Shown in pieces: positions 10,234 to 56,669 of a stretch of DNA of 64,000 bases. The translations under genes and the position numbers were made by a program. Positions within the stretch are counted from its first letter, which is position 1; the number at the start of each line of letters is the position of its first letter. The stretch lies in NCBI GenBank assembly GCA_014728215.1, contig WJLZ01000086.1, positions 62,001 through 126,000 of the forward strand. Reading direction: 5' to 3'. Under the pieces are notes generated by a model. It saw only the letters and a list, made by a program, of their open reading frames with translations. It was not told the DNA's origin and searched no databases. This DNA is from Chitinivibrionales bacterium. Its GTDB lineage: Bacteria; Fibrobacterota; Chitinivibrionia; Chitinivibrionales; WJKA01.

Positions 10234-11310
<1,077 letters not shown>

Positions 11311-12148: not shown

Positions 12149-12168
12149 AGGGCCGCTCCCTGGTTAAA

Positions 12169-12200: not shown

Positions 12201-12243
12201 ATAATCTCAAAACTCGAAAAAGTGAATTTGGTTGTTGGATTCC

Positions 12244-13556: not shown

Positions 13557-13577
13557 TTTTGTGTATCTGCTGTTTTT

Positions 13578-13934: not shown

Positions 13935-13953
13935 AAAAAGCCTCCTGATTTTT

Positions 13954-14337: not shown

Positions 14338-14359
14338 ACGTTACATCCTTACCTCTGTC

Positions 14360-14815: not shown

Positions 14816-14861
14816 CGGACCTCCTTGTTTTTAGAGCTTTATTCTGTTGAATATCATGAGC

Positions 14862-15239: not shown

Positions 15240-15254
15240 ATATTCCTTTTGCTC

Positions 15255-17624: not shown

Positions 17625-17667
17625 TATTCAATACCTGTCATTTCTTATTGCGACGTTCTGTTTTAGA

Positions 17668-21000: not shown

Positions 21001-21064
21001 GTTCGGTGAACTGGATAACAGTCAGAAGATCCGTAAATTTCTCGTTGAGTTCTGTCTTTTTCAT
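18041..21064 (-). CDS. Hybrid kinase GAF-like/PAS/HisKA/HATPase/pseudo-REC/REC/Hpt
   Basis: This is a 1007-aa multi-step phosphorelay kinase without membrane segments. The GAF-like N-terminus (10-190) is paralogous to that of the kinase at 2104. PAS lies at 205-320. HisKA has His360 (NMSHEIRTPLNG), and HATPase has DTGIGIK and GAGLGLAIAKKL. The first receiver (about 590-690) is degenerate: VES replaces the acidic pair and Glu650 stands where Asp is expected. The second receiver has Asp789 (IVFMDIQMPLMDG), and the C-terminal Hpt has His934 (QAHKIKGACKNI). It lies 12 bases after cheR and overlaps the receiver gene at 17668. Its place inside the che operon suggests cross-talk with CheA signalling. 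Confidence 0.92.
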   Translation of the reverse strand: MKKTELNEKFTDLLTVIQFTERVCTKLYADLDENRIYETVIQEFNRMEDFIVTIFVANCRSSRLRLFGTTLPPAIIAASEKTTGILLQNLEIDLTKAEHYQRTVCKGETVLVDGREIMRELVPGAAVESIGEITDFWSRKMAMSPIYVDREINGIICISAPLEAEYFVPTVRNLSHHISAALKLAGEHKQRTALEKRLSESEERYRSLIENTEDITYFADLNGNLIYISPQVQSYGYTQEELVDKNILEFIHPESQQDVDLNFLELISNGRDGANEFRLVSKDGKTYWFEDRSKARKDSEGEIVGVSGILRNITERKENEEELQRINKKLARTVAHAELFAKDAKEANEAKSKFLANMSHEIRTPLNGIIGMAELIGETHLTTEQLEYLDIINNSSRSLVELIDEILDFSKIEAGKMNLMHRPFSLEEVCDEIADLLAKHAFDKGLEFICFKHPAIPDLLFGDKSRLQQILLNIAGNAVKFTNRGEVRIGATKKHETHSHVLVEFEIQDTGIGIKEENMHLMFQSFCQIDSSTTRKYGGAGLGLAIAKKLIDCMQGEVEVESTEEEGTLFRITMTFEKAGKEKTILSPSPPLKDKKIALAVESKSLRNILVEYITFWGGTAENCDDIAALVKENGKDLKQKNPYLAAIIESRLLEKYYSEKPEINNEFQMKAIVINEMFPGTSNLTDKYKIGTAAIVQKPVKGMRLKDAIIAACRNNEPPMENCRVEKCREIDVTRRKTRVLLAEDNETNQRVAVYIFNRIGCTVDIVESGKEVLEALKSKSYDIVFMDIQMPLMDGIEATRIIRNSPVLPSPVRSIPIIAMTAHVLSEDRQRCIEAGMTDYIAKPITSENLKKALELVKTSEKCLTIRKGLKKSFIVENEVFNRREFSSRMEGDAELVWRVLKVFLGDVPVQIQSLWTHLTAVDCKAISRQAHKIKGACKNIEARSMADIAAKLQEAGHNADLGEITQLIEKLELEFRILRIVLSSIDPKRMLLYAKERVDENACG

Positions 21065-21076
21065 TATTACGTTCTT

Positions 21077-21880
21077 CTATGCTTTTACATAAACCGATGG
21101 CTTGACACATTTAAATCCACTGAGCATACCCGTCAAGCTCTCGGCATGGCCAACCATGAGATACCCACCGGGTTTCAGAAGGCGATAGAATTCGTTTAAA
21201 AGCCGTTTCCGCACCTCGTTATCGAAATAAATCATGACATTTCTGCAGAATATCGTATCCATAGGTCCTTGCATGGGAAAGGGTACAACCGACAGATTGA
21301 GTCTTTTGAAAAGGATCATTTTCTTTAACTGGTCCTTTACTCTATACACTGCCGTAGTGTTTCTTCCTTGTTTAACAAAATACCGTTCCCGTAAAAAGGG
21401 AGAAACATTTTCAATTTTACGGGCCGAATACTCACCAGCCATACTTGCAGCAAGAATTCGTGTCGAAATATCGGTTGCCAGAATCCGCATGTCGGACGTC
21501 CGGCCATCCAGGGTCTGGAGAAGAGTCATTGCGATCGAATAGGGTTCCTCTCCCGAAGAACAGCCTGCAGACCAGTACCTGAATCGCCGCTGCCCCTGTT
21601 CGAGCCATTGAGACATCGCTTCGCTTAAAAAATCAAAATGTTCGTTTTCTCTGAAAAAGTGCGTGACATTGGTTGAAACAGCATCCAGCAGTTGAACAAT
21701 TTCTTCACCGTTTTTATCATTCTGGACATACTGCAGATACTCTTCATGTTCTTCCATACCAAGTGCCCGCATACGTTTGGCAATCCGGGCACTCACCAGG
21801 GCTTCTTTTTTTTCATTAAGAGAGATACCGGCGGCGGCATAGATGATATCCCGGAATTGAATGAATATCTTTTTATCCAT
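21077..21880 (-). CDS. cheR: Chemotaxis protein methyltransferase CheR
   Basis: CheR transfers methyl groups from S-adenosylmethionine to receptor glutamates. The 267-aa protein has the helical CheR N-terminal domain (1-75) and the SAM-binding domain with FRYWSAGCSSGEEPYSIAM (motif I), the aspartate-ending strand DMRILATDIS, and IFCRNVMIYFD (motif IV). Length is normal. I prefer ATG 21880; a GTG two codons upstream is in the same frame. The gene follows cheW after a 168-base gap with an 11-bp hairpin, and precedes the hybrid kinase by 12 bases. Confidence 0.95.
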   Translation of the reverse strand: MDKKIFIQFRDIIYAAAGISLNEKKEALVSARIAKRMRALGMEEHEEYLQYVQNDKNGEEIVQLLDAVSTNVTHFFRENEHFDFLSEAMSQWLEQGQRRFRYWSAGCSSGEEPYSIAMTLLQTLDGRTSDMRILATDISTRILAASMAGEYSARKIENVSPFLRERYFVKQGRNTTAVYRVKDQLKKMILFKRLNLSVVPFPMQGPMDTIFCRNVMIYFDNEVRKRLLNEFYRLLKPGGYLMVGHAESLTGMLSGFKCVKPSVYVKA

Positions 21881-21917
21881 CAGCACAACTCATTGTAAAT
21901 GGTATTAAAACGACAAC

Positions 21918-21946
21918 CCCTCTCCTTCCTTTCGTGAAGGAGAGGG
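21918..21946 (-). terminator. Perfect 11-bp hairpin between cheW and cheR
   Basis: CCCTCTCCTTC (21918-21928) pairs perfectly with GAAGGAGAGGG (21936-21946) around a 7-base loop. On the minus strand it is followed by a mixed tract with TTTT. It could act as an attenuator or partial terminator lowering expression downstream of cheW, or as an RNA-stability element. The T tract is weak for a full intrinsic terminator. Confidence 0.45.
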
Positions 21947-22048
21947 ATTGTCCATATGATGCTTAACCAATAGATGCAAATTCTTTACCGTCATTTTATT
22001 GTCACTTTTACACTTCGTATAGATGACCATTTTGGAAAAAAGCCGGTT

Positions 22049-22564
22049 TTACATATTCGACAACATATCAACTTCATTTCCCGAAAGTACCCGCTGTATA
22101 TCGAGTAACATCTTTACATTTTCACCGAGCTTTCCTATGCCCATGATAAAATCGGTATCGATACTTGATCCGAAAGTGGGCGCTTCCTCAATTTCATCGG
22201 GCTTAATATCCAGAACTTCCTTAACTTCATCGATAATAATACCCATAGTCACCGGATTCCCCTTGGACTCGATCTGTACGACAATTATACAGGTCTTATC
22301 GGTATCTTCCTGAGACGCCATGCAGAATTTGGCCCGCAACTCGATCACGGGAATGACTTTTCCCCGCAAATTGATCACGCCACGCACGAATTCCGGTGCC
22401 TTCGGCACTTTGGTTATCTTCTGCATCTGGATGATCTCCTGTACCTTGAGAATCTCAAGACCGTACTCTTCGTCACCCAGTATAAAGGTCAGATATTTGC
22501 CGGACAGTTTCTTTCCGATATCCGATACTTCGGCCGCTGTATCAGTATGAGTGTTTTGTGACAT
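22049..22564 (-). CDS. cheW: Chemotaxis coupling protein CheW
   Basis: CheW links CheA to chemoreceptors in the signalling array. The 171-aa protein is a single CheW domain: KYLTFILGDEEYGLEILKVQEI, then TKVPKAPEFVRGVINLRGKVIPVIELR (the conserved core), ending in a family-typical helix (KLGENVKMLLDIQRVL). The start at 22564 is set by AAGGAGG eight bases before the ATG. An upstream in-frame GTG would sit directly on the Shine-Dalgarno. It lies downstream of cheA, separated by a gap holding CGAAAT-type repeats. Confidence 0.95.
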   Translation of the reverse strand: MSQNTHTDTAAEVSDIGKKLSGKYLTFILGDEEYGLEILKVQEIIQMQKITKVPKAPEFVRGVINLRGKVIPVIELRAKFCMASQEDTDKTCIIVVQIESKGNPVTMGIIIDEVKEVLDIKPDEIEEAPTFGSSIDTDFIMGIGKLGENVKMLLDIQRVLSGNEVDMLSNM

Positions 22565-22591
22565 GAAACACACCTCCTTGGGGGATTAAAA

Positions 22592-22650
22592 TCGAAATTC
22601 GAAATCCGATACTCGAAATCCGAAATCCGAAACAGTATGGTAATTATATT
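22592..22650. repeat. Dispersed repeat family 3 (CGAAAT), copy 2
   Basis: Five CGAAAT-type units (CGAAATTCGAAATCC and variants) are followed by TATGGTAATTATATT. The same unit plus tail occurs at 12169-12200. The element fills the gap between cheA and cheW. Confidence 0.5.
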
Positions 22651-22688
22651 GAAAATTCGATATCCTGGTAGCCCTCTTCATTTTTTCT

Positions 22689-25457
22689 TTATTCCCCTGC
22701 CAGTTTTACTATTTCTCCGATATCGAGGATGAGCGAAACATTGCCGTCACTCATGATAGCGCCGCCGGCAACACCCGGATGATCGCCCAGACCGTGGCCC
22801 AGGCTTTTAATTACTACCTGTTGCTGTCCAAGAATCTCATCGACCAGAAGAGCGATCCGTTTACCGATCATATCTTCCACAATAATGGCAATACCTTCTC
22901 TGGGGTCGGTTTTTGTCCCATTGGTTCCGAAAATCCCGGACAATCGTACAAAGTTGAGCAACTCACCCCGCACCTTCATCATTTCACCTCTGCCCATGAT
23001 CGATTCAATCTGTTTCTCCTGAGGCTTGAGTGATTCAATAATCGATAAGGTCGGTACGATATAGGATTCCTCCTTAAGCCGCACAATCATACCATCGATA
23101 ATCGCCAGAGTCAGCGGCAACCTGATCGAAAAGGTCGTTCCTTTTCCCGGTTCTGATTGTATTTCGACGGACCCCCGTAGGGACTGTATATTTCTCTTGA
23201 CAACATCCATGCCGACCCCTCTTCCGGAGACATCGGTAATTTTCTTCGCCGTCGAAAAACCGGGGGCAAAAATGAACTGGTAGATCTCCTGGTCGGATAA
23301 CTTGTCATCCTCTCTGGCCAGCCCCTGTTTTACCGCTTTTTTTAATATCGAATCCCTGTCCAGCCCACGGCCGTCATCGGAAATCTCGATATAAATGCTT
23401 CCCGCCTTATGGAAAGCACTGAGTTTGACAATACCGACAGGATCTTTTCCGGCGGCAATACGGCCTTCCTTCGAATCTTCAATACCATGGTCCACCGAGT
23501 TGCGAATCATATGAATAAGGGGGTCACCGATATTCTCGACAACAGACTTGTCAAGCTCAGTCTCTTCGCCGTCAGTAACAAAATTAACTTCCTTCCCGGA
23601 TTTTTTCGAAAGATCCCGTACCAGCCTGGCCATCTTCTGGAATGTGGATTTAATCGATACCATTCGAAGGGCCATTGAAAGTTCCTGTACCTGGCGCATG
23701 ATCAAGCTTGTTTGAGCGATCTTTTTCTCCAGTTTCTGATTTCGTGCTTCCATAACAGCCGGATCTGCAGCAATCATCGATTGAGCAATAACCGCTTCAC
23801 CGATAGCATCGACAAGCTGGTCCAGTCTGTCAACAGGGACCCGTATAGTTTCTTCCACAACCGGTTTCCGGGCCGCATTCTGGCTCGCAAGTGCGCCCGC
23901 AACTTGCCGGCTTGACGTTTTTTTGTTTTCAATAAGTATTTCACCGATTTTTCTGCCATCACCTTTTTTCTGAGCCTCCAACGCTCCTTCAATTTCTTCT
24001 GCCGAAATAGTTCCTTTCTCTACAAGAATTTCTCCCACCTTTTTATCGGGTGATGACGCCGGTGCTATATTCGGTTTTTCACCGAGCGAACGGGGTGAGG
24101 CCAACCTTTCCATTATGCTCCGGTAGGATTCAGGTAACGAATAGGCTTCACCACTCAGGGTATTTTCAACAATAGCGATAAACTCTTTTAAACAATCCAT
24201 CGATTCGAGCAGGAGATCTATATGAACCGGCTCAAGTATGAGATTTCCCTTGCGAGCCATATCCATTACATTTTCCATGCTGTGAGCAAGTTCACTCACC
24301 TCTTTGAGCGCTAAAAAGCCCGCAACCCCTTTAACCGTATGGCAGGAACGGAAAATACTGTTTAGATGTTCGGGATTCGCCGGATCATTCTCAAGCTCTA
24401 AAAGCAGCGATTCCCCACTATTGATATGATCCCGTGATTCGGTGACAAAGTCTTTAATAAGCGAGGGATCAACAGCTACACATGCTTGTTCAGGCTGTGC
24501 ATTCGATTGAGAAGAAGGTAAGGTTGTTGATGGCTGTTCTTCACATGAGGCGGTAGCTTGTTGATCCCCCGTGGCGTCAGTGGGGACACTTTCCGTGTTA
24601 TCACGGCCGCAGTTGTTTCCAAATACAGCAGTGGTATCTTTTTCGCTTATATCGGCAACCGATCCTGATGTCAAATCACTTATTCGTGAAGCAAGCAGAT
24701 CCTTGAGTTTGAAAAGGTTATCCCCTGTAAATGATCCGTTTTCAAAAGCCTCTTCAACATCATGAATAAGTTTCGAATAATTTCTCAGATCCAAAACACC
24801 AAATTCACCTTTCCAGGTATGGAGGACTCTTTTGATGGCGCCTTTGGCCTGAGGAGCTCCTTTCTCATACTCCAGAATATAGGCTTCAAAATCTTCCACA
24901 ACCGGCATCTGTTGTGCCGCAAACCTGGTGGCAAGCTCCTTGAGATCCTCGGGGAAATTAATTGTCCCACCCTGTCCATCACCGGATTTCATACTTACGG
25001 CCCTGTCGCTTTCAACATCCTCATCAAAGGAATCGATAAGCTTTTTAGCTGCGTCATTATCCTGTTTCTTTTGCTGTTTGCCGGTTTTCTTTTTCCCTTT
25101 GTCGCTATTGTCTTCCCCGCTGTTATCATCCGGATCAGCTACTGTTTTGTTCCCCTCTTTTTTAACTTCACCGTTGTTATCCATGGCAAAGAGGGCTTTG
25201 GACATCTTATCGACACATTCCCCCAACTTTGAACATCCGGTATCAAAAGCTGTCTCATCCATGATAATATTTTCGGCCAGCTTTGCAGCGCGGTCGGCCA
25301 TACTGCAAAATGCCTTCGGCAAATTGTCCGTCCCCGCTAACTGTTCCATCGCTCCCATGATCTCCGTAAGGGAGGTAAGATCGGATTTATCTAAAAGGGG
25401 CAGTTGTGATGCAACCCGGTTCAAGGTTTTTTCAATAGAATCATTTTTTTGAGTCAT
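22689..25457 (-). CDS. cheA: Chemotaxis histidine kinase CheA, unusual N-terminal architecture
   Basis: CheA autophosphorylates on an Hpt histidine and passes phosphate to CheY and CheB. This 922-aa form is longer than usual. It has a helical N-terminus and a Lys/Asp-rich linker (100-150). A first Hpt-like domain carries His213 (VLHTWKGEFG). A second, canonical Hpt carries His373 (FRSCHTVKGVAGF). Two MshEN/GspE-N-like repeats follow at 473-528 (KVGEILVEKGTIS ... KIGEILIENKKTS). Next come the dimerisation domain, the HATPase (MIRNSVDHGIED, GRGVGMDVVK) and the CheW-like domain. I see no obvious P2 CheY-binding domain. The start at 25457 is supported by GGGGGAG upstream; Met at 25487 overlapping the previous stop is the alternative. 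Confidence 0.93.
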   Translation of the reverse strand: MTQKNDSIEKTLNRVASQLPLLDKSDLTSLTEIMGAMEQLAGTDNLPKAFCSMADRAAKLAENIIMDETAFDTGCSKLGECVDKMSKALFAMDNNGEVKKEGNKTVADPDDNSGEDNSDKGKKKTGKQQKKQDNDAAKKLIDSFDEDVESDRAVSMKSGDGQGGTINFPEDLKELATRFAAQQMPVVEDFEAYILEYEKGAPQAKGAIKRVLHTWKGEFGVLDLRNYSKLIHDVEEAFENGSFTGDNLFKLKDLLASRISDLTSGSVADISEKDTTAVFGNNCGRDNTESVPTDATGDQQATASCEEQPSTTLPSSQSNAQPEQACVAVDPSLIKDFVTESRDHINSGESLLLELENDPANPEHLNSIFRSCHTVKGVAGFLALKEVSELAHSMENVMDMARKGNLILEPVHIDLLLESMDCLKEFIAIVENTLSGEAYSLPESYRSIMERLASPRSLGEKPNIAPASSPDKKVGEILVEKGTISAEEIEGALEAQKKGDGRKIGEILIENKKTSSRQVAGALASQNAARKPVVEETIRVPVDRLDQLVDAIGEAVIAQSMIAADPAVMEARNQKLEKKIAQTSLIMRQVQELSMALRMVSIKSTFQKMARLVRDLSKKSGKEVNFVTDGEETELDKSVVENIGDPLIHMIRNSVDHGIEDSKEGRIAAGKDPVGIVKLSAFHKAGSIYIEISDDGRGLDRDSILKKAVKQGLAREDDKLSDQEIYQFIFAPGFSTAKKITDVSGRGVGMDVVKRNIQSLRGSVEIQSEPGKGTTFSIRLPLTLAIIDGMIVRLKEESYIVPTLSIIESLKPQEKQIESIMGRGEMMKVRGELLNFVRLSGIFGTNGTKTDPREGIAIIVEDMIGKRIALLVDEILGQQQVVIKSLGHGLGDHPGVAGGAIMSDGNVSLILDIGEIVKLAGE

Positions 25458-25483
25458 GTATTTCTTACTCCCCCGAGTATCTT

Positions 25484-25888
25484 TCATTTCGTTCCCGATA
25501 CATTTTCATTGGAAACGGCAGTAGTTTTATCTTTTTCCAAAACTTTATACACAACAGCTTTCAGGTCGGGAAGGTTTATTGGTTTCACAAAAAAGAAGAC
25601 CGGCGACAATTGGCGTGCGTTGCGTTCAGTCTCTTCGGTTATGTCGCCGGTCATCAGAATAGAGGGGGTATCCCATCCTCGAGCACGCAATTCGGGAATT
25701 AACCGTTCACATGATTTTCCCGGAAGATGATAATTTCCGATAAAAAGATCAAAATTTTCCCTTTGCATCACTTCAAAAGCATCATTACCGTTATCCACGA
25801 TAGAAACATTACAACCGATATCCCCTAGATATTTTTTCAGCGCCCTGAGGCAAAAATGATCATCATCCGCCAGCAATACCCTATACAT
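25484..25888 (-). CDS. Pseudo-receiver domain protein (Asn at phosphoacceptor position)
   Basis: This 134-aa single receiver lies directly before cheA. The N-terminal acidic cluster is intact (LLADDDH), as are the switch threonine (ILMTGD) and the lysine (FFVKPINLP). The phosphoacceptor position, however, is Asn52 (LFIGNYHLPG), read as AAT in the sequence. It should not be phosphorylated in the normal way and may work as a constitutive or binding-only partner of CheA or other array proteins. It lies between a 67-aa gene (32 bases upstream) and cheA (27 bases downstream of its stop to the preferred cheA start). Confidence 0.85.
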   Translation of the reverse strand: MYRVLLADDDHFCLRALKKYLGDIGCNVSIVDNGNDAFEVMQRENFDLFIGNYHLPGKSCERLIPELRARGWDTPSILMTGDITEETERNARQLSPVFFFVKPINLPDLKAVVYKVLEKDKTTAVSNENVSGTK

Positions 25889-25920
25889 AGCTATTCTCCT
25901 TGACTCGAGATTATTCCCTG

Positions 25921-26124
25921 CTATTTCACAATGTGCTGCTCAAGAATCGATATATAAAGATCAAGAAAAGACCGTGAATTGAAATGGCGCTTAAAATACG
26001 GTCCGCTTTTTTCAAAGGTGTCGTCATAAAGAGCATGGATATATCTGGTAAGCAATTCATCACTCCTAAAACCATTCATTGTTTTCCCTTTCTCTGTGCA
26101 AACATCCTGTTCGTACGATACCAT
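25921..26124 (-). CDS. Small hypothetical protein (67 aa) at the head of the che operon
   Basis: A strong AAGGAG six bases before ATG 26124 sets the start; a longer frame upstream lacks such support. The product (MVSYEQDVCTEKGKTMNGF ...) is mildly charged and predicted helical, with an aromatic-rich C-terminus (YIHALYDDTF, FLDLYISILEQ). I recognise no family, signal peptide or membrane segment. Its place as first gene of the chemotaxis transcript, 32 bases before the pseudo-receiver, suggests a role in that system, but nothing more can be said. Confidence 0.65.
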   Translation of the reverse strand: MVSYEQDVCTEKGKTMNGFRSDELLTRYIHALYDDTFEKSGPYFKRHFNSRSFLDLYISILEQHIVK

Positions 26125-26176
26125 GACATACTCCTTTAAAATGGTTGTCTTTTCGGAGATCATAATCTAATCAATT

Positions 26177-26205
26177 ATCATACCAACCGCACTGATTGCC
26201 CTTAA
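26177..26205 (-). promoter_or_regulatory. Candidate sigma-70 promoter of the che operon
   Basis: On the minus strand TTAAGG (26205-26200) and TATGAT (26182-26177) are separated by 17 bases, with a TTGG just before the -10 box. They lie about 50 bases before the start of the 67-aa gene that opens the cluster. Confidence 0.4.
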
Positions 26206-26300
26206 AAGACAAAAAAACAGCCAATTGTACCTGTTTAAACTCATAGCCTGCTCTATTGGTGTATCATTCCGACAACACTTTTTTCCGCAAGCGATATATG

Positions 26301-26323
26301 ACCTGTCTCATGATGATACAGGT
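26301..26323. promoter_or_regulatory. Imperfect 23-bp palindrome
   Basis: ACCTGT at 26301-26306 and ACAGGT at 26318-26323 are inverted, and the inner TCAT/ATGA also pair, leaving one mismatch pair and a short centre. It lies about 95 bases upstream of the che promoter candidate. It could be an operator or the stem of an RNA hairpin (followed on the plus strand by TTAAAAAA). Confidence 0.35.
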
Positions 26324-26525
26324 TAAAAAATACTGATCTTCAGATATGTAATAAACTACTGCAAGTGTTTAATTTACAGGCAGTTACAATCTACATACCC
26401 CGACGATATCAGGGTGTATGATTTTGATACGGAAGGATGAATGGTGAGTGGTGAAATACAGCGATGAATAAATGAAAGGATACAATAATGAATGGAAATC
26501 AATAATACACATTCGAGAGATTCAG

Positions 26526-27893
26526 TTAACTTGCAGCCTGGGCTGCACGAAACGTATCGGGAGAAATCTCGAGTTCTTTCAGTTTACGGAGTAAATTTGG
26601 CCGATGCATTCCGACCTCACGGGCAACATGACTTACATTCCCCTCATGTTTTTGGAGCATCTGGGTGAAGTACTTTTTTTCGAACTCGCTTTTTGCCTGG
26701 GTGTAGGGAAGGCTCTGCTCTTTGGTTTCTTCGATATGAAGGACCGATTTGACGACACTGCTGTTTATTCGTTTCTGGTCTCTTCCCCGTGCGCAGAGAA
26801 GATTGACCGTATGTTTCAGTTCCCGGATATTCCCCGGCCATTTATTCTCGTACAGCAAAGCCATGGCATCGGGGGTAATTTCTTTTCCACTATGATATTT
26901 TTTCAGAAAGTAGCGGACTAAATAGGGAATATCTTCCTTATGATGAGGCAGTGACAGGGTTCCTATTCCCGCGCCTTTAAGTCGATAATAGAGATCTCTC
27001 CGAAAAGTACCTTCTTCAACCATATCTTCAAGATTGCGGTTCGTCGCACTGACTATCCGGATATCAACTTTTCTCGGACTTACATCCCCTACCCGTACAT
27101 ACTCTCCTATATCAAGTACCCGTAAAAATTTTGCCTGGACAGAAAGTGACAGTTCACCGATTTCATCCAGAAAAACAGTCGACTTGTTTGCACTCTCTAA
27201 AATCCCCTGCTTGGAAGAGTGTGCACCGGTAAAGGCACCTTTGGCATAGCCGAAAAATTCAGATTCTTCCAGGTGATGCGGAATGGCGCCGCAGTTGATG
27301 GTGATAATCCGTTCATTGCCCCTGCTGCTGTTGTTGTGAATCGCATGGGCAATGATCTCCTTACCGGTCCCGGATTCTCCCTGAACCAACACCGGGAAAT
27401 CACCTGCAGCCATGAGGAGAATTTCGGTGCGTAACTTTTTAATATACGGTGAAACCCCGATAAGCCCCAGGTCATTGTTTGAATCGACAGTCAAACCGAT
27501 CTCCTGATTTGTTTCAACCGTCCGCCGCTTCTCAAGAGCGCCATAAACCGAATACCGTAATTGTCTGAGCGAAAAGGGTTTGATTATAAAGGAATCGACC
27601 TCGAGTTCCTGCATCTCTTTGACCTTTTCATTATCAGGGAACGCGGTAATGACAATAACACTGGTGGAGGGGGATTTTTCTTTGATAAATCTCACCAGTT
27701 CGATCCCGTTTACCCCCGGCATATTCAAATCGGTGAGAAGCAGATCAAAGTCGCTTTTTTCGATATATAACTGTGCTTCAGGAACATTGTCGGTTATTTC
27801 GAGGGCAAACCCTTCTTTATTAAGAGTATTCTGTATTATCTCCCTCATTGCAAGTTCATCATCAACAACAAGGATTTTTGCCGAATTTTGCAT
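26526..27893 (-). CDS. Sigma-54-dependent response regulator (NtrC family)
   Basis: This is a 455-aa transcription activator. The receiver (5-120) has phosphoacceptor Asp55 (LLLTDLNMPGVNG). The AAA+ domain (about 145-370) has Walker A GESGTGKE, the sigma-54 contact loop GAFTGA, Walker B TVFLDEIGE and the arginine-finger region RRDLYYRL. The C-terminal Fis-type helix-turn-helix is GNVSHVAREVGMHRPNLLRKL. It should remodel sigma-54 RNA polymerase at distant enhancer sites once phosphorylated. No kinase is adjacent, but the hybrid kinases and CheA of the nearby cluster are possible donors. It is probably transcribed separately, with about 400 bases before the next gene. Confidence 0.94.
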   Translation of the reverse strand: MQNSAKILVVDDELAMREIIQNTLNKEGFALEITDNVPEAQLYIEKSDFDLLLTDLNMPGVNGIELVRFIKEKSPSTSVIVITAFPDNEKVKEMQELEVDSFIIKPFSLRQLRYSVYGALEKRRTVETNQEIGLTVDSNNDLGLIGVSPYIKKLRTEILLMAAGDFPVLVQGESGTGKEIIAHAIHNNSSRGNERIITINCGAIPHHLEESEFFGYAKGAFTGAHSSKQGILESANKSTVFLDEIGELSLSVQAKFLRVLDIGEYVRVGDVSPRKVDIRIVSATNRNLEDMVEEGTFRRDLYYRLKGAGIGTLSLPHHKEDIPYLVRYFLKKYHSGKEITPDAMALLYENKWPGNIRELKHTVNLLCARGRDQKRINSSVVKSVLHIEETKEQSLPYTQAKSEFEKKYFTQMLQKHEGNVSHVAREVGMHRPNLLRKLKELEISPDTFRAAQAAS

Positions 27894-30860: not shown

Positions 30861-30890
30861 TTGAAATATCCCCTCAATCATCGGTATAAT
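30861..30890 (+). promoter_or_regulatory. Sigma-70 promoter for the FecR/CsgG-like genes
   Basis: TTGAAA at 30861-30866 and TATAAT at 30885-30890 are 18 bases apart, about 30 bases upstream of the ATG at 30921. This is the best sigma-70 match noticed in the window and implies strong constitutive expression of the exported FecR-like proteins. Confidence 0.6.
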
Positions 30891-30920
30891 ATAGAAATAT
30901 ATACCTGTAAAGGAGGGATA

Positions 30921-32144
30921 ATGCAAAAAACCGATTTTTCGGGCATTTCAGTCTGTCTTTTCCTGCTCTTTGCATCATTTGCATCACCGGCATCTTCAGT
31001 AATGCTCGATTCGCTTACCGGCAAAGCGCAGGTACAGCGGGCGGGAAAAGGCAAATGGTTTCCCGTTAAAGAAGGCACCGAGCTGCATAACAACGATATC
31101 ATACGAACAGCCGCACACTCAACTGCAAAGCTGAAGTGGGGAAATGAGGATCATGTCTATTTAAAGGAACAAACCCAACTCCTCGTAAACCTTCATGAAA
31201 ATAAAAAACCATCATTGATATCACAGCATATAACGGTCTTTTACGGCGCTGCGTTTTTTATCATTAGAGAAGTCCTGCCTGCACTCGGAAACAAACGCTA
31301 TGATACTAAAGTCTACTCACCTACTTCGGTAGTTGCTATTCGGGGCACCTCCTTCTGTGTAGCCGCCGATAAAGAGAGTGGGAAAACGGCGCTTATAGTA
31401 ATCAACGGAACGGTCCTTACCCGCAATATTCTTCGAAATGTTTCGGTGTTTGTCCGTTCAGGATACCAAACCTCAATTGCAATCAATACCGACCCCATAA
31501 AACCATCCCCGGTACTCAAAAAGGACATCAAAGAATTAAAAACGTGGGTTCCCCTTGCCGTTCTCACCGAAGAAATGAAAAAGCAGAAAGAAAAATCACA
31601 GCGAACAAAAGCAATTATCTCAGGAAAACTCGAGCAGAAAACCGCAGTAGTACCCTTTGCCAATATTTCCACTTACCGGGGCTCCTGGGATATCGGCTCC
31701 CTTTTTGCCCAATTTATGGCATCAAGGATCGATAAAGAAACCCCGGGGATGAAAGCTGTCGTAACCACTCTTTCTGCAGAGAACCCCGTGGAGATCGGCA
31801 TGAAAGAAAAGGCTCACTATGTTGTTACCGGCGAAATCACCGTATTTGATATCGTTCAGCATGCCAAAGTTACTCCAAAGGCCGATGATTATAATGAGTA
31901 TTCCGATGCAATTATCGAAATCCGGTGCAGTCTCATCGATGTTGCGGGTGAAAAGGTCAAGTATGACAATACAATTAGCGTAAAAAGCCGGGGTGACAAT
32001 GTTCCCCACAACACCTGGAAAGAAATCGGTAAACTGAAATGTGACATGAATGATTCAACTTTTACATCATCATTGATAGGAACATCGATCAAACGAGCCA
32101 TTGATCAGGTTTCGGGCGAAATTGCACGGTATTTACGCGACTGA
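30921..32144 (+). CDS. Exported FecR-domain / CsgG-like fusion protein (copy 1)
   Basis: This is a 407-aa secreted protein. The start at 30921 follows AGGAGG six to seven bases upstream, and a signal peptide (ISVCLFLLFASFASPAS) occupies the first 26 residues. Residues 30-180 form a FecR/DUF4880-like beta domain: SLTGKAQVQRAGKGKW, LHNNDIIRTAAHSTAKL, then SPTSVVAIRGTSFCV. After a basic helical linker, residues 245-405 resemble CsgG/LpoB-type lipoprotein domains (TAVVPFANIS, HYVVTGEITVFDIVQ, IEIRCSLIDVAGEKV, IGTSIKRAIDQVSGEI). A paralogue follows 54 bases downstream. No lipobox cysteine is apparent, so it is probably periplasmic. A role in envelope scaffolding or export is inference. Confidence 0.75.
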   Translation: MQKTDFSGISVCLFLLFASFASPASSVMLDSLTGKAQVQRAGKGKWFPVKEGTELHNNDIIRTAAHSTAKLKWGNEDHVYLKEQTQLLVNLHENKKPSLISQHITVFYGAAFFIIREVLPALGNKRYDTKVYSPTSVVAIRGTSFCVAADKESGKTALIVINGTVLTRNILRNVSVFVRSGYQTSIAINTDPIKPSPVLKKDIKELKTWVPLAVLTEEMKKQKEKSQRTKAIISGKLEQKTAVVPFANISTYRGSWDIGSLFAQFMASRIDKETPGMKAVVTTLSAENPVEIGMKEKAHYVVTGEITVFDIVQHAKVTPKADDYNEYSDAIIEIRCSLIDVAGEKVKYDNTISVKSRGDNVPHNTWKEIGKLKCDMNDSTFTSSLIGTSIKRAIDQVSGEIARYLRD

Positions 32145-32198
32145 ACACCATGGTATTAAGTAACCTGTTCAAGAAGGCTCAGAATAGAGGAGACGAAT

Positions 32199-33425
32199 AT
32201 GACTATCGGTTCGGGAAGTTATGTTAAATCACTTTTGGGTTTGCTGCTTTGCATTCATATATGTTTCGCAGAGGAATATGTGACACTTAAAAGTCTGACC
32301 GGACAGGCTGAAGTCAGGAAGGCGGGACAGGAAAACTGGAGACTGGTCGGCCAGGGCGCAAATCTTCATAACAACGATATATTCAGAGTTGCAAAGAATT
32401 CAAAGGCATGTCTTACCTGGAGTGATGAAAGTGAAATATATCTTAAAGAAAATTCCCAGATACTCATAAATCTCCATTCCAACCCCGGTGATAATTCGGT
32501 TGTTCAACATTTTACGGTATTTTTTGGAGCAGCATTCTTTCTTTTTAAATGTGCCCTTCCAAAATTAGTCCCCGACAACCACTCAAAGGTATACACACCA
32601 ACTGCAGTAATTGCAACCAGGGGTACTTCTTATGAAGTTAATGTTTCAAAGAATAACGGCACATCATCAATTAAAGTGCTTAACGGCACTGTTCTGGTGA
32701 AAAATATACTGAAAAATTCGTCCCTGTTTTTGAAGGCGGCATATAAGACTGTCGTTGAAATAAACACCGATCCGATTGTGCCCAGTGCCATTCTTGAAGA
32801 TGATATTGCTCTTTTAAAAAAATGGGTCCCCTCTGAGGTAATCCGCAGGGAAATGAAATTCCAGCTCTCACGGGCCAAACGGGACCATGAAATTATTACC
32901 GGCAAACTGATCAATAAGATGGTTATCGTACCCCTCCGGAACAATTCCGACTATGAAGGTGAGTGGCAACTACCAAAGGAACTGGCAAAATGTATTTCGG
33001 CAAAGCTATCCGAATCGATCAAGGGGCTGAGTGCGAATGTCACCGGTAATTATAAAGCCGACCCGCTAAGCCTGGGGACCGATCATGAAGCCCGTTTTAT
33101 CCTGCGGGGTTCGATTGAAAAATTTGATATTTCACAACATGCAAAAGTCTCCCCTTCAGCCGATGAATACCGTGAATACAATCTTGCGGAAATACGGCTT
33201 TATCTGCAGCTTATCGATGCTGAAACTGAAAAAATGGTGATTGACAACTACTATTCGGGTGAAGTTTCGGGCAAACACGACAGCCATAATTCATGGGAAA
33301 CGATACGAAAATACCCCTGCAACCTCAAAGACCCTCATTTCAGCAAGTCTATTTTAGGAAGGGCCCTGTTTCAGGCCATCGAAGGGGCATCTCAGGAGAT
33401 AACGCGTTACGTGAAGGGAGAGTAA
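32199..33425 (+). CDS. Exported FecR-domain / CsgG-like fusion protein (copy 2)
   Basis: This is a 408-aa paralogue of the preceding gene, aligning along its whole length. It has a signal peptide (LLGLLLCIHICFA, cleavage before EEY). The FecR-like domain has SLTGQAEVRKAGQENW, LHNNDIFRVAKNSKAC and TPTAVIATRGTSYEV. The C-terminal CsgG-like domain has MVIVPLRNNSD, ARFILRGSIEKFDISQHAK, LAEIRLYLQLIDAETEKMV and ILGRALFQAIEGASQEI. GAGGAGAC upstream of ATG 32199 is a good ribosome binding site. It ends about 130 bases before convergent efp. The pair arose by tandem duplication and was kept despite divergence, suggesting separate or heteromeric roles. Confidence 0.75.
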   Translation: MTIGSGSYVKSLLGLLLCIHICFAEEYVTLKSLTGQAEVRKAGQENWRLVGQGANLHNNDIFRVAKNSKACLTWSDESEIYLKENSQILINLHSNPGDNSVVQHFTVFFGAAFFLFKCALPKLVPDNHSKVYTPTAVIATRGTSYEVNVSKNNGTSSIKVLNGTVLVKNILKNSSLFLKAAYKTVVEINTDPIVPSAILEDDIALLKKWVPSEVIRREMKFQLSRAKRDHEIITGKLINKMVIVPLRNNSDYEGEWQLPKELAKCISAKLSESIKGLSANVTGNYKADPLSLGTDHEARFILRGSIEKFDISQHAKVSPSADEYREYNLAEIRLYLQLIDAETEKMVIDNYYSGEVSGKHDSHNSWETIRKYPCNLKDPHFSKSILGRALFQAIEGASQEITRYVKGE

Positions 33426-36578: not shown

Positions 36579-38405
36579 CTACCAGTTTCCCGGATCTTCC
36601 TTTTCGGATTCCTTGTTTCTGCCGAAGAGTTTCTTGAGCCCTCGCCGTTTCTTCTTATTGGAATCCTTTTTTTCATCAGATTCACCGGTATCTTTCGGTT
36701 CTGGTGTATCGTCGATATCTTCTGAAGCTTCCTGAGGCTCATTGCCAGCAGCATTCTGCACATTTGCCGAATCGCTGTTTTCGTATGACTCGACAGCACC
36801 GCTTTTTTGGTCAGTCGTTTCCAGCGCGGAACCGAATCCAACTGTATCCAGTTCCGGCGGAGTAGCATTCTCCACCGACAGAGTATCCTCCCCAACATCC
36901 CCACCATCCTGATATACCTGAGGAGCTTCAATATCGGCCTCTTCATCACCGAAGCTGTTCTGTTCCATGACCGAATGCGCGGCAGGGCTCGTGACATCAC
37001 GTATTTCCAGATCCGATGAAAATTTCACTCCGGTCTCTTTGGAAAGCTTCTGAAGAACTTCCTGGGCGGCAAGGGCAACACCATCATCAGGATCGTTTGC
37101 AAGTTGCTCCATCAAATAGATTGCCTGTGTTTCTTTCATTTTTCCCAGCGCAATCAAAACCTCAATCCGTATCCCCGGATCCTCTTCTTCGGAAAGTATC
37201 GTCAAAAGCACATCAGATGCGCCTTTGCTTCCAATCTCCCCAAGAAGCGCAGCACTGAGCATCCTGATATACCGGTCCTCTGTTTTATCCAGAATAATCT
37301 CTTTGAGAGGCGGAAGCGCTTTTTCGCGGAAATTGGCTATCTCCGTTATAGCCTGTTTCACCTTTTCAGGCTCAAAAGGCACTGCTTCATACAAACTCTT
37401 CAGGGTAATAATCTTATCAAGGAGCAACAGTTTAATGCGCTCTCCATCCTCGGGAATACTATCCACCAGGGAAGTAAGAGACTGATCCATGGAGCTGATT
37501 TTTGTCTGACTTCGATTAAGCTTTCGTTTCAAACTGTCCACTTCGTCTCTCAGCGCAAACACCATCTGTTCCTGGCGGGCAAGGCGGTCATCAATAGAGG
37601 TAAATCCGGCTTTTTTGCCAAAACCGAGACTTCCATTATACGCTATGCCGAACCAAATACCCGGACGAACCAGGGATGTATCTTCTGTTGGATCGGAAAG
37701 GGCAAGGCGGAATTCTCCATTATCGAAAAGAAATCCCGGGATATCGAAAATCCCCGCCGCAACCTGAAGGCGTTTACTCAGAAGTCGCCATGAGACAAAA
37801 AGGGAAGGTATAATTTTCTCATCCCGCCGATGCACTTCAACAGAGGTATATACTCCCGCTCCAAAATACTTTTCAATTCCAAAAAAAGGATTAACAAGTT
37901 CGCTTTCGCTGGTCGGAATGGTCTGAATGCCGAGATGAAACCGCGTTTTGAGCTGTTCGAGGCTTTTTGCCATGGTGCAGTAAAATTCATTTGCCATATT
38001 ATCGGCAACAGTCGAATCGGCACCGAAATAATGGGCTTCCTTATGGGAAAAAACATTATGGGCACCTACTGCCAGGGAAGGCATCCATTGTTTTGTTTCT
38101 CCAAGGACACGGGCTTTAAACCCCAGGGTCGGTCCCCCCGCATACCCGAGATGAATATTAACCCATTCGATTATACCAAGCTTAAAAAGAAATGTACCAC
38201 CGAATTCCGGTGATGGACCACCCGAGCCGGAATCGGCAAAGTAATACCCCTGTCCGTCAACAACAAAATAGCCACCCCTCAAAAGATCGGCATCAGGTAT
38301 GACATGGAGTGAACTCCACCGTGTTTTGCCCATCGCAGAAGAAAAACACAAAACCACGATGTAAAGCAAGCCGACAATACACGCGCGATTAGAGGGCAAA
38401 GACAT
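36579..38405 (-). CDS. Exported protein with barrel-like domain and HEAT repeats
   Basis: This is a 608-aa protein with a signal peptide (CIVGLLYIVVLCFSSAMG). Residues 30-290 are Gly/aromatic-rich alternating strands (GGTFLFKLGIIEWVNIHLGYAGG and so on), like an outer-membrane or periplasmic beta barrel. A short coiled coil lies at about 292-325. HEAT/PBS-lyase-like repeats follow at 335-455 (IRMLSAALLGEIGSKGASDVL, IRIEVLIALGKMKETQ, VALAAQEVLQKL). The last 150 residues are acidic and disordered, ending in a basic KKKRRGLKKLFGRNK segment. AGGAGAGCG precedes the ATG. I do not recognise the full architecture. The HEAT repeats suggest periplasmic protein contacts; the function is unknown. Confidence 0.7.
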   Translation of the reverse strand: MSLPSNRACIVGLLYIVVLCFSSAMGKTRWSSLHVIPDADLLRGGYFVVDGQGYYFADSGSGGPSPEFGGTFLFKLGIIEWVNIHLGYAGGPTLGFKARVLGETKQWMPSLAVGAHNVFSHKEAHYFGADSTVADNMANEFYCTMAKSLEQLKTRFHLGIQTIPTSESELVNPFFGIEKYFGAGVYTSVEVHRRDEKIIPSLFVSWRLLSKRLQVAAGIFDIPGFLFDNGEFRLALSDPTEDTSLVRPGIWFGIAYNGSLGFGKKAGFTSIDDRLARQEQMVFALRDEVDSLKRKLNRSQTKISSMDQSLTSLVDSIPEDGERIKLLLLDKIITLKSLYEAVPFEPEKVKQAITEIANFREKALPPLKEIILDKTEDRYIRMLSAALLGEIGSKGASDVLLTILSEEEDPGIRIEVLIALGKMKETQAIYLMEQLANDPDDGVALAAQEVLQKLSKETGVKFSSDLEIRDVTSPAAHSVMEQNSFGDEEADIEAPQVYQDGGDVGEDTLSVENATPPELDTVGFGSALETTDQKSGAVESYENSDSANVQNAAGNEPQEASEDIDDTPEPKDTGESDEKKDSNKKKRRGLKKLFGRNKESEKEDPGNW

Positions 38406-42335: not shown

Positions 42336-43169
42336 TTACCGGATCAGCACCCCCAGGTCCTTGCCGTCATCGCCCTTTTTACGACAGGGCGAATTTTCGA
42401 GAAGACTGAAATCCATATCCCTGCTTTTCGGTGCAGTAAAGAAAGGATCGAGGGCGAAGTTGCCGGAAGGCAGCACGTGTAGTCTTCCATGATTCCCGTA
42501 AAAATTATTATTAATCAGCATTATATTTCTTGAATCGGGGCCAGTTTTTACCGCCAGCCGCTCATTATAGGCGATAATATTATTTTTGACCATAATCTGC
42601 TCCGCGCCGTCAAGCGCAATACCGTGGCTGGCATTATAAGCGATCGTGTTATGGTTGATAGCACTGCTGCCGTCGGAACGAACATCCTGCCCCTGTATTC
42701 CTGCACCACGGTTGTAGACTATATAGGTATTTTTAATTTCACAGAGATTGCCGATCGAAATAACCCCCGAGCCAAGATTGTTGACAATAAGGCATTTTTC
42801 AATTTTTGAGTTCGAGCCTTTGGATAACACACCATGGGTCCCATTTCTTATTTCGAAACCAATAATGGCAGCATCCGAACCAAGGGTGACAACTGTCCCC
42901 CTTCCCTTTCCATTAATTACCGCCTTGAAGCGTTCCTTTGCAATTAATGTCACACCGGGCTCAACAATAACATGTTCCCGATACTTGCCGGGCTTCACCA
43001 GAATAGTATCACCCGGTTTGGCCTTGATCATGGCCCGGGAGATGCTTCTCATTCCCTTTGAAGGTACTGTTAAAGTATTCTGGGCTGCAACAAAGCAGTT
43101 AAAGATACTCACCAGCGTTATTATTCTGATTACAGCACGGGTAGTAACGTTGCTCCTTTTCGCATTCAT
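42336..43169 (-). CDS. Exported parallel beta-helix protein (paralogue A)
   Basis: This is a 277-aa secreted protein. The start at 43169 follows AAGGAG; an N-terminally longer frame lacks this. A signal peptide (IITLVSIFNCFVAAQ) precedes the family opening LTVPSKGMRSISRAMIKAKPGD. Right-handed parallel beta-helix coils of about 22 residues follow (VTLIAKERFKAVINGKG, AAIIGFEIRNGTHGVL, IEKCLIVNNLGSGV, IKNTYIVYNRGAGI and so on). The C-terminus holds a short tail with FALDPFF. No catalytic residues of pectate lyases are evident. Two close paralogues lie at 45679 and 46577. A surface or periplasmic carbohydrate-binding role is possible. Confidence 0.78.
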   Translation of the reverse strand: MNAKRSNVTTRAVIRIITLVSIFNCFVAAQNTLTVPSKGMRSISRAMIKAKPGDTILVKPGKYREHVIVEPGVTLIAKERFKAVINGKGRGTVVTLGSDAAIIGFEIRNGTHGVLSKGSNSKIEKCLIVNNLGSGVISIGNLCEIKNTYIVYNRGAGIQGQDVRSDGSSAINHNTIAYNASHGIALDGAEQIMVKNNIIAYNERLAVKTGPDSRNIMLINNNFYGNHGRLHVLPSGNFALDPFFTAPKSRDMDFSLLENSPCRKKGDDGKDLGVLIR

Positions 43170-43185
43170 AAAAAACTCCTTCAAA

Positions 43186-43223
43186 AACAAAAAAAGCCTT
43201 GCCTCCACAGAAGGAGACAAGGC
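43186..43223 (-). terminator. Intrinsic terminator after the barrel-TPR gene
   Basis: On the minus strand GCCTTGTCTCC and GGAGGCAAGGC form a stem of about 10 pairs with one mismatch around TTCTGT, followed by TTTTTTTG. It lies about 40 bases after the stop at 43264 and just upstream of the beta-helix gene, so it separates the two transcripts. Confidence 0.7.
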
Positions 43224-43263
43224 ATAAAATACATCATTTGAAAGGAATAGTGGAAACCGGTGC

Positions 43264-45624
43264 TTACTGACCATCCTCTTCAAGCTTCTTCATTTCTTCT
43301 TTAAGCTTTTCGATTTCCATATCAAGTTCTTTCTGTTTTTCGATTTCCTGTTTAGGTGCAACCGATGTACCCTCACTCAGTTTTTCGGCAGTTGCAAGGG
43401 CGTATTCAATATCGCTCTTCACCTTGTCGATACCCTGTGAGAAGAAACTCCGTCGTTCGAATTCATCGGTATACGTAAGAAAATCTTCGATAGCCTGCTT
43501 TTCTTCTTTTTGATGAATATGCAGACTGTCGATCATTCGTAATACCAGTGATGTTTGACGAACCAGAGCAAGTTCCTCGGCCGACTGTGCAACGGTCTCA
43601 TATTGCTCCCGGTTTCTCTGATATTTTTCTTTTCGAAGGGTAAGTGAATCTTCGGGAGGTCCGTCATAATCTTCGATTTTATTAAGGGCCTGCCGTAGAA
43701 TATTGGCTGCTTCATCATAGCTTTTCTTCATCATGGCTGAATATGCTTCCAGAAGCGCGCCTTCAGCCTGCACGGCAATTTTATTCGATGTTCGCTGAAG
43801 GGCTTGACCTGCCTGAGCACAATCGGCCCATTGGCGGGCTTTCACCCCAGTCCATCCAAGACCAAGAAGCGCATCTTCATAAAAATAGCTCGAATTCGGT
43901 ATTTTTCTGAGCGCCGTAACCGCTTTGGACAGCGAAAGCTCTTCGTAAAAAACATAACCGATAAGGAGCAGCGAACGATTAACGCATTCGCGCTGATCTT
44001 CTCTTTTTGCCTCAGTCTGAATTGCATTTTCCAATGCTTCAGTGGCCTCAGTTGATTTGTCCTGTCTCATATAGGTAACGGCCAGTGAATGCTGTGCAAA
44101 GACATAGTCGGGATGATACTCAGGAACATTTTCAAATAGCTGGATCGCTTTGGCATGCTCTTTCTTTTTCGCATGCACCTGCCCCATAATATAGAATGCA
44201 TGATATTTCAGTGAGTCGGGAACCGCGGGAGCATTGAGGCGGTTGAATTGCGTAGTAACCGCAACATCATCACCCTCCCTGTAGGCAACCCGCATAATGC
44301 CGAGGTCTGCATAAGGCACAATTTCACTCTGGGGATATTTTGAGATAGCATCATTATATCCCTCCCATGAAGTCTGCCGCATATCGAGTTCTTCCTGACA
44401 ACTGTGGAGATAATAATTTACCCAGTCGTTTTTGAAAAAATCGGGAAATTGAGAAAGTATCTGTCCAAAAACAAAGAAAGCATCCCAGTACTTTTCCTGA
44501 TGATAAAGGGTAAGGGCCTTGTTGTAAAGGTCATTCGGTGAGGCATCGAGCATACGGGCCATACGACGGGCATAAATTTCTTCCCGGTGAAGACCGAATT
44601 CGGCACGGCCGTAAATTGTATGCGTCGAAATGTTGTCACCCTCGAACATGGAATTATACTGGTACAAAAATTCAACATCCCGTCCATTATTAACACTGGG
44701 CATATTGAAACCACCGGCAAATCCCCAGTAGCCCGGGAGCTCATTACCTTCAACCGGTTTGTCACTCAACCCGAACTGGCCGTAGAGCTTGAATATCCGA
44801 AGAAGCCAGAATCCCAGCCGATAGGAAAGTTCCCATTCGACTTTACTCGCAGCATCAACAAGCCCCTCATTGGAAACTTCTTTAAACTCATCTGCCTGTG
44901 TAAGCCAGTCTTTGATATCGAAATCCATACCGCTGGAGATCCGTTTTTCCCAGAAGGTTGCAAGCCAGGAGAGCTTCAAATTGCGGGAATAAACATCCCC
45001 CTCAAGTTCTTCAACATCGCTTTTCAGGGTAGGAGCGAGAATATTTTGAAAGGTAAGACCGAATAGGTGATTTCCGATAACCGGGTGTCTAAACGCGCGA
45101 TAGCTAATACCAAAGTCAATACCCGGCATTGGGCTGAATCGTTGTTCTTCTCCAAAGAGGCTTTCGTGGGCAAAGTTAACATTAACACCCGTACTCAGCC
45201 TGTTCCATGGATTGATTGCATAGGAAAGCATAAAGAAATTGTGCTGACTGCTTATCTCTCCATCGGTCTTTTTCATGGTTTGTTCATCATTGTCCCATGT
45301 GTATCCTGAAAATTGTCCTGATCCCAATCCGATCCATGATACACTGACCGATTGATACAGCCCGATAGGAACGGTTACACCTATTTCCCCGAGCTTGAAT
45401 GAATTTCCAAGCGTGGGAGCAAAGGCGCCCCGGGCAGTGATATAATTGGCTTCCGTCAACAGCGCGGGATTGGTCAGCGGAGAATAGGGTGACAGTAAAT
45501 CACGCCACCGCTGAGTGATAAGATATTCGCCCGGAAGACCGGCTGCCGAAATCGAGGATATCATTCCGGCAACAAGCAGAAGAACAACACCAATCTTTCG
45601 TGTATAGCAATTTGTATTCATCAT
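43264..45624 (-). CDS. Outer-membrane barrel (PorV-like) fused to TPR repeats
   Basis: This is a 786-aa protein with a signal peptide (IGVVLLLVAGMISSISAAG). Residues 35-345 are alternating aromatic strands typical of PorV/UPF0164-type barrels (NPALLTEANYITARGAFAPTLG ... LSYAINPWNRLSTGVNVNF). Residues 350-690 contain TPR units (ALTLYHQEKYWDAFFVFGQILSQF, HAKAIQLFENVPEYHPDYVFA, TEATEALENAIQ). The last about 50 residues are a charged coiled coil (KQKELDMEIEKLKEEMKKL). The order of barrel followed by periplasmic TPR suggests an outer-membrane anchor that gathers partner proteins. It lies between beta-helix genes and ends in an intrinsic terminator. Family membership below the domain level is not recognised. 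Confidence 0.72.
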   Translation of the reverse strand: MMNTNCYTRKIGVVLLLVAGMISSISAAGLPGEYLITQRWRDLLSPYSPLTNPALLTEANYITARGAFAPTLGNSFKLGEIGVTVPIGLYQSVSVSWIGLGSGQFSGYTWDNDEQTMKKTDGEISSQHNFFMLSYAINPWNRLSTGVNVNFAHESLFGEEQRFSPMPGIDFGISYRAFRHPVIGNHLFGLTFQNILAPTLKSDVEELEGDVYSRNLKLSWLATFWEKRISSGMDFDIKDWLTQADEFKEVSNEGLVDAASKVEWELSYRLGFWLLRIFKLYGQFGLSDKPVEGNELPGYWGFAGGFNMPSVNNGRDVEFLYQYNSMFEGDNISTHTIYGRAEFGLHREEIYARRMARMLDASPNDLYNKALTLYHQEKYWDAFFVFGQILSQFPDFFKNDWVNYYLHSCQEELDMRQTSWEGYNDAISKYPQSEIVPYADLGIMRVAYREGDDVAVTTQFNRLNAPAVPDSLKYHAFYIMGQVHAKKKEHAKAIQLFENVPEYHPDYVFAQHSLAVTYMRQDKSTEATEALENAIQTEAKREDQRECVNRSLLLIGYVFYEELSLSKAVTALRKIPNSSYFYEDALLGLGWTGVKARQWADCAQAGQALQRTSNKIAVQAEGALLEAYSAMMKKSYDEAANILRQALNKIEDYDGPPEDSLTLRKEKYQRNREQYETVAQSAEELALVRQTSLVLRMIDSLHIHQKEEKQAIEDFLTYTDEFERRSFFSQGIDKVKSDIEYALATAEKLSEGTSVAPKQEIEKQKELDMEIEKLKEEMKKLEEDGQ

Positions 45625-45678
45625 AAAAACGTCTTTCTATTAAATAAAAGTGTCCTTTTCCACAGTTACTTTTTATGA

Positions 45679-46521
45679 CTAAAAAAGATCGCTGTTGGTG
45701 CTTGTCGACTGAGAATCCATCCGCACCCCCGGAATTTCATCCTTTGGGCATTCGGGACAGACAACTTTTCCGCTTACTTTGAAATCCATCCTTGATCGCG
45801 GTGCACTGAACTGAGGATTATAGGAGAAATTTCCCTCGGGCTGGGGCTTGGGTGACCAGAGATTGCCGTAGATATTGTTATTGGCAATTTTCACTTTCTC
45901 GGCTTCCGGCCTGATTTTGGTCCCAAGTCTTTCATTAAATGAAATAATATTATGTTGAATAAGGATATTAGACTTCCCCCCCATCGCAATTCCGTTATTC
46001 TCGTTGAACGCTATGGTATTATGGTTGACTGTCGGTCCGGCAGAGCGAACATCCCACCCCTGTATTCCGGAGCCGCGGTTAAAAGCAATAACATTGTCTT
46101 CTATCATCGGAAGATGACGTACACAAATAATGCCGGTCTGAAAATTGTTTTCGATACGACAGTTTTTGATGGTATTTCCCGGATGTTTGGAAAAAATACC
46201 GATAGTACCGTTTTTGATCACGAATCCGGAAATGCTTGCGTTTCTTCCCAGCGTAACGACCGTCCCTTTGCCTTTGCCGTCAATAACCGCTTTTAACGGG
46301 TGACGGGCCATGAGAGTTATTCCTGATTCAACAAAAACGCGTTCACGGTAAATACCATTGTTCACCCATACCGTATCTCCGGGCTTGGCCCTGATAAATG
46401 CATGAGCAATAGTCTGGATTTGACCAGACGGCACTGTAATGGAATTACCGGCAACAGCAATGCCGAACACCAGGAAACACGCCCCAAAGGCAATACAACA
46501 TTTAAATGTGTCTCTTATCAT
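45679..46521 (-). CDS. Exported parallel beta-helix protein (paralogue B)
   Basis: This is a 280-aa secreted beta-helix protein. The signal peptide is CIAFGACFLVFGIAVAG, followed by SITVPSGQIQTIAHAFIRAKPGD, then repeated coils (ITLMARHPLKAVIDGKG, ASISGFVIKNGTIGIF, IEDNVIAFNRGSGIQGWDVRS, VNHNTIAFNENNGIAMGG). AAGGAG before the ATG supports the start. It differs from paralogue A mainly in the C-terminal tail (VVCPECPKDEIPGVRMDS), which has a Cys pair. It lies about 55 bases upstream of the barrel-TPR gene and 55 downstream of paralogue C. Confidence 0.78.
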   Translation of the reverse strand: MIRDTFKCCIAFGACFLVFGIAVAGNSITVPSGQIQTIAHAFIRAKPGDTVWVNNGIYRERVFVESGITLMARHPLKAVIDGKGKGTVVTLGRNASISGFVIKNGTIGIFSKHPGNTIKNCRIENNFQTGIICVRHLPMIEDNVIAFNRGSGIQGWDVRSAGPTVNHNTIAFNENNGIAMGGKSNILIQHNIISFNERLGTKIRPEAEKVKIANNNIYGNLWSPKPQPEGNFSYNPQFSAPRSRMDFKVSGKVVCPECPKDEIPGVRMDSQSTSTNSDLF

Positions 46522-46576
46522 ACCGCTCTCCTTCGTCTCAGTCTATATGACAGTTTTTATTATGATCGTGGATATG

Positions 46577-56648: not shown

Positions 56649-56669
56649 AAGGATACTGATTATACTTCT

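Follow-up and report, generated by a model that had tools for sequence, protein, structure and literature searches.

Introduction

FecR is usually treated as a sensor domain. Two consecutive genes in the 64-kb stretch of DNA analyzed here (the window) raise the question of what this domain does when it is exported and joined to a C-terminal domain (CTD) of a different kind.

Results

Two paralogous genes encode exported two-domain proteins

Both open reading frames are intact and lie on the + strand, copy 1 (P0001, 407 aa) at 30921..32144 and copy 2 (P0002, 408 aa) at 32199..33425. Each encodes a signal peptide, a FecR domain, a linker and the CTD, in agreement with a preliminary description of the locus as a tandem pair of exported fusion proteins; Pfam supports both assignments, together with an AlphaFold model for copy 1 and pairwise alignment for copy 2. 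The genes are separated by 54 nt and are probably cotranscribed. For copy 1, the ATG at 30921, with the ribosome-binding site AAGGAGGG upstream (30910..30917, +), is preferable to a mechanically assigned TTG start at 30861, and copy 2 is preceded by GAGGAG (32187..32192, +). Ahead of the pair is a sigma-70-like promoter, TTGAAA-18-TATAAT (30861..30890, +), which had been singled out as the strongest in view. Its score of 11/12 is high enough for the top rank, but that rank is tied, as the three 11/12 sites in the window include those at 2345 (+) and 12288 (−). The five promoter sites found in the region, compared with 6.0 expected from shuffles, do not exceed the shuffled number.

Pairwise alignment of the two proteins gives 42% identity over 399 aa (E=4e-118), with ~48% in the FecR part and 35% in the CTD. 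Two copies are present only in the window genome, and every other carrier shows one. In the family tree, copy 1 groups with a gene fragment from the same genus (G036, support 98/100), where the contig ends inside the gene so that a pair would not be visible, and copy 2 groups with the single copy of a genome of the same family (G037, support 95/97). Because of these separate pairings the duplication seems to predate the genus, with one copy subsequently lost in G037, a tentative conclusion given that most deeper branches are poorly supported. The second copy looks like an old, diverged duplicate.

Signal-peptide-like N-termini are present on both copies, and no lipobox cysteine is conserved in the N-termini of the family alignment, as judged by eye. 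The FecR-like beta domain attributed to each copy is confirmed by Pfam FecR (PF04773), at 37.3 bits (E=3.9e-9) and 38.2 bits (E=2e-9) against a cut-off of 24. It occupies 30999..31484 (+) in copy 1 (residues ~27-188, Pfam match 60-165) and 32277..32762 (+) in copy 2 (Pfam match 62-165, aligned with copy 1), and in Foldseek comparisons this part matches the anti-sigma factors 4m0h/4m0n and PupR (6ovk). A helical linker follows at 31518..31619 (+) in copy 1 (residues 200-233, from DSSP of the model).

Since FecR is best known from sigma regulators, and Burkholderia genes for LysM-FecR proteins accompany those for CHASE2 histidine kinases (PMC5192318), the fusions could be periplasmic sensors that, like either of those systems, use FecR to relay signals to a partner spanning the membrane. 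Signaling is nonetheless unlikely because the proteins have no cytoplasmic anti-sigma or sigma-binding domain and no transmembrane helix besides the signal peptide. The relay model itself is highly improbable: no ECF sigma-factor gene adjoins the fusion, a conserved kinase partner was not found, and the response regulator at 26526 in the window is not kept beside the gene in most relatives.

The CTD resembles envelope proteins in its predicted fold

The CTD spans residues ~238-407 and corresponds to 31632..32141 (+) in copy 1, assigned from Pfam matches of orthologues, AlphaFold and Foldseek, and to 32910..33422 (+) in copy 2, assigned from a Pfam FlgT_M match (E=0.0015) and the family alignment. 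Its sequence signal in the window copies is weak, as this match and one to CsgG (E=0.14) both fall below cut-off. One orthologue (L030) matches CsgG (PF03783) with E=1.7e-7, scoring 31.2 bits against a cut-off of 20.8 over profile positions 77-194, and another (L044) matches FlgT_M with E=6.6e-6, just under the Pfam cut-off. Sequence searches of the PDB returned no relative of the CTD.

AlphaFold, run with 18 orthologues, gave a confident two-domain model of the full protein (mean pLDDT 86), and the CTD alone reached a pLDDT of 89 and a pTM of 0.82. The modeled CTD consists of a strand, a helix, a strand, a short helix, three long strands and a long C-terminal helix, the last of which had been anticipated from the sequence; the conserved signature PFxNxSxYxGxWD sits after the first strand. 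In Foldseek searches of the PDB, FlgT ranked first (8z5n, LPHT ring, E=5e-10; 3w1e, 2e-9), followed by CT253, HpaA, PelC, GNA1162, CsgG and LptE, with E values of 1e-10 to 1e-6 for FlgT, PelC, HpaA and CsgG. Most of the matches belong to the envelope, and many form rings or are bound to the outer membrane. The fold prediction, named beforehand as the result on which the earlier interpretation would turn, thus matches FlgT-, PelC- and CsgG-related folds, and that interpretation stands. Of the two relatives originally suggested, CsgG is supported by the above-cut-off orthologue and by the fold, but LpoB gave no Pfam match in the window copies and is absent from the 50 Foldseek matches listed, and kinship with it was not found. 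According to the model, the nearest solved fold is that of FlgT, not CsgG. Together, the signal peptide and the predicted fold family make the broader designation of envelope module likely.

By eye, the modeled strands are long, carry charged residues and look soluble, and a separate hairpin insert is not seen. A pore or channel is unlikely because there is no lipidation and there are no obvious membrane hairpins. An adhesin-like protein, surface-exposed or secreted, in which FecR and the CTD bind extracellular ligands such as polysaccharide, would be in keeping with the presence of H. pylori HpaA among the fold matches, with other proteins of these genomes in which FecR is joined to Ig/PKD domains, and with the best NCBIfam matches, which are weak and fall to the leptospiral FecR-type adhesins Lsa33 and Lsa19 and the lipoprotein LipL45. 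These last matches, however, are restricted to the FecR part and lie far below cut-off, and neither a lipobox nor any surface-sorting domain in Pfam was detected, leaving an adhesin role doubtful.

The fusion is conserved within Fibrobacterota

The two-domain architecture is conserved in one order and in three genomes of other families. Of 168 Fibrobacterota genomes, 20 carry it, 17 from the window's order (families f1, f3, f5, f6 and f7) and three from elsewhere (G153, G166 and G167). The gene is intact in 17; of the remaining copies, two are cut short by the end of a contig (G035, G036) and one, an orthologue in the flagellated G018 (L046:4050-4841), is interrupted by an in-frame stop and is apparently decaying. 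In the alignment, FecR and the CTD are kept together in all 18 full-length sequences, a conservation that excludes a chance origin of the architecture. A collection scan with two rows gave no relatives, and one of a second genome collection with eleven rows gave 10 with the fusion (one a fragment), all of them Fibrobacterota and named as Chitinivibrionales, Chitinispirillaceae or Fibrobacteres MAGs, which puts the window within Fibrobacterota and near Chitinivibrionales; relatives in Acidobacteria and in one Chloroflexota-labelled MAG share the FecR part only.

Outside the fusion, the CTD profile identifies little besides one weak match and an exported protein of G167 (L088:10049-10981) that carries the same motif but lacks FecR; the latter indicates that the CTD exists as a module. 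FecR, in turn, is joined in this phylum to Ig and PKD repeats, to an FGE-sulfatase and to a ~500 aa stretch without a Pfam match, and FecR-CTD is therefore one of several FecR fusions there. No FecR fusion with a CsgG-like domain was found in the literature searched or in curated families; the individual domains are known, and their combination is real and apparently undescribed.

A second FecR family of 714-783 aa, in which the domain is followed by ~500 aa without a Pfam match (barrel-like by eye), was observed at L082, L084, L085, L090 and L091 and in the window genome at L087:1-1257. In several genomes it lies beside a nadC-like gene, often with coaX/birA-like genes.

The patchy presence of FecR-CTD, the broken copy in G018 and the absence of the fusion from its sister species G017 would fit an accessory lineage gene that has no dedicated partner, resides mainly in larger-genome members and has been lost repeatedly. 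Across several families of the order, however, the residues of the two domains and the locus are conserved; this speaks against such an explanation, which we consider unlikely.

Genomic surroundings point to no constant partner

Within the order, the usual neighbors are ilvD (divergent) and/or efp with an H+-pyrophosphatase gene (convergent). The locus is conserved order-wide, but these are housekeeping genes that carry no functional hint, and a dedicated partner gene within the order was ruled out. Of partner outer-membrane genes, which the preliminary description had suggested looking for, no constant one was found near the fusion among the carriers. A type IV pilus/type II secretion cluster stands next to the fusion, in divergent orientation, in G034 alone and was rejected as a general neighbor.

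In G166 and G167 the gene order is ribosomal S20 (recognized by inspecting its translation), lysA (by Pfam, in G167), DUF2914 and the fusion gene, and the DUF2914 proteins of these two genomes are 21% identical. A DUF2914 gene is directly upstream of the fusion only in this pair, is 10 kb distant in G031, and is widespread elsewhere without the fusion, which eliminates it as a universal partner. Small exported or anchored DUF2914 proteins also occur near FecR-containing genes in four genomes (L045:9240-9767, L048:1414-1920, L082:6824-7369 and L083:3088-3585) and are possible partners of FecR proteins.

Elsewhere in the window are a large chemotaxis cluster at 10234-27893 (CheB, CheX twice, CheD, CheR, CheA and hybrid kinases), accompanied by a sigma-54 response regulator and, at 8335-9750, a FapA-like protein; a 608 aa exported HEAT-repeat protein at 36579-38405 (−), conserved order-wide at this locus; a TPR protein with three right-handed beta-helix (NosD-like) proteins around it at 42336-47449; and, at 54801-60482 (−), Wood-Ljungdahl genes (RACo-type activator, CdhD and CODH/ACS beta subunit), here in a member of the Fibrobacterota.

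Co-occurrence with flagella largely reflects ancestry

FliF and/or FlgH is present in every one of the 20 carriers, and the fusion is found in none of the 105 genomes that lack both (Fisher p=3e-10). Within the order the same comparison gives p=0.5, and outside it p=0.007 with three carriers; the association is mostly explained by relatedness. One possibility suggested by this distribution is a lineage-specific component of the flagellar outer-membrane ring that fills the role of FlgT, with FecR replacing the FlgT N-domain. FlgT heads the fold matches of the CTD, no protein in the phylum matches FlgT_M above cut-off, one genus contains a genome with both flagella and the fusion (G031) and another with neither (G032), and the window has chemotaxis genes at 10-25 kb, with FliF on the same contig 18 kb to the left of the window. 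The fusion is missing, however, from 43 flagellated genomes, several of them nearly complete (e.g. G025, G155-G159), which rules out a core flagellar component; in addition, flagellated G018 carries only its broken copy, the gene lies outside flagellar clusters, and the correlation is confounded by ancestry, the Fibrobacteraceae lineage having lost its flagella (PMC4704652). We regard such a ring component as quite unlikely, and a Fibrobacterota-specific, FecR-bearing ring protein that belongs to the flagellum's outer-membrane collar and functionally replaces FlgT, with the two window copies forming a hetero-oligomeric ring, as very unlikely.

Discussion

Our best reading, to which we assign a probability of roughly 0.45, is that these proteins are soluble periplasmic scaffolds or adaptors of the envelope, with the CTD assembling near the outer membrane and FecR binding a partner. 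The signal-peptide-like N-termini, the high-confidence model and the fold matches of the CTD to ring-forming or outer-membrane-bound proteins are the basis for this proposal, along with the joint retention of the two domains and the FecR-less protein of G167. An ordinary signal peptide would send a soluble, non-lipidated protein to the periplasm, where the CTD, by analogy with FlgT and PelC in their rings, might self-assemble or dock at the outer membrane from the periplasmic side. FlgT is found in the periplasm as part of the H-ring (PMC7990780), and twelve PelC subunits build a periplasmic ring on PelB (PMC12141448). The FecR domain could then serve as an arm for a partner, which might be the cell wall, a protein of the outer membrane or the DUF2914 protein whose gene precedes the fusion in distant relatives. 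Against the scaffold proposal, the neighbors in the order are housekeeping genes rather than envelope machinery, the fold family extends to adhesins and to lipoproteins that form no rings (HpaA, LptE), and many of its known members are lipoproteins whereas the FecR-CTD proteins are not.

In Fibrobacterota the cell surface, although poorly understood, plays a central part in breaking down chitin and cellulose. FecR appears here as an exported module joined to varied envelope domains within one phylum, including one that is FlgT/PelC/CsgG-like, and if the CTD forms rings, the fusion would constitute an unrecognized envelope scaffold in Fibrobacterota.

The fusion shares the FecR fold with FecR/PupR sigma regulators (4m0n, 6ovk) and differs from them in having neither a cytoplasmic anti-sigma domain nor a neighboring ECF sigma gene. 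LysM-FecR proteins (COG4254) and leptospiral LipL45/Lsa33 likewise combine exported FecR with another module, but the fusion has no LysM, matches curated models only in its FecR part and has different operon partners. With CsgG/HfaB (PF03783) it shares the core fold, the orthologue L030 scoring above the Pfam cut-off and the window copies below; CsgG, however, is a lipidated pore protein whose hairpins span the membrane, and neither feature is apparent in the N-terminus or, by eye, in the model. PelC, a periplasmic ring protein at the outer membrane, has the same fold as the CTD (TM up to 0.67 normalised to PelC) but is a single-domain lipoprotein, and no pel genes were identified beside the fusion. 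FlgT of the Vibrio H-ring (Pfam FlgT_M PF16539; 3w1e, 8z5n) has its own N and C domains and not FecR. Its N-M-C architecture is not reproduced in the fusion, where a FlgT_M-like region below cut-off is paired with FecR in place of the N domain; identity is only 14%, and the function of FlgT is flagellar. FlgT nevertheless resembles the fusion in being periplasmic and not a lipoprotein, and it provides the best fold match to the CTD, with an E value of 5e-10 and a TM score, taken over the query, of 0.66, alongside sequence matches to FlgT_M that stay below threshold.
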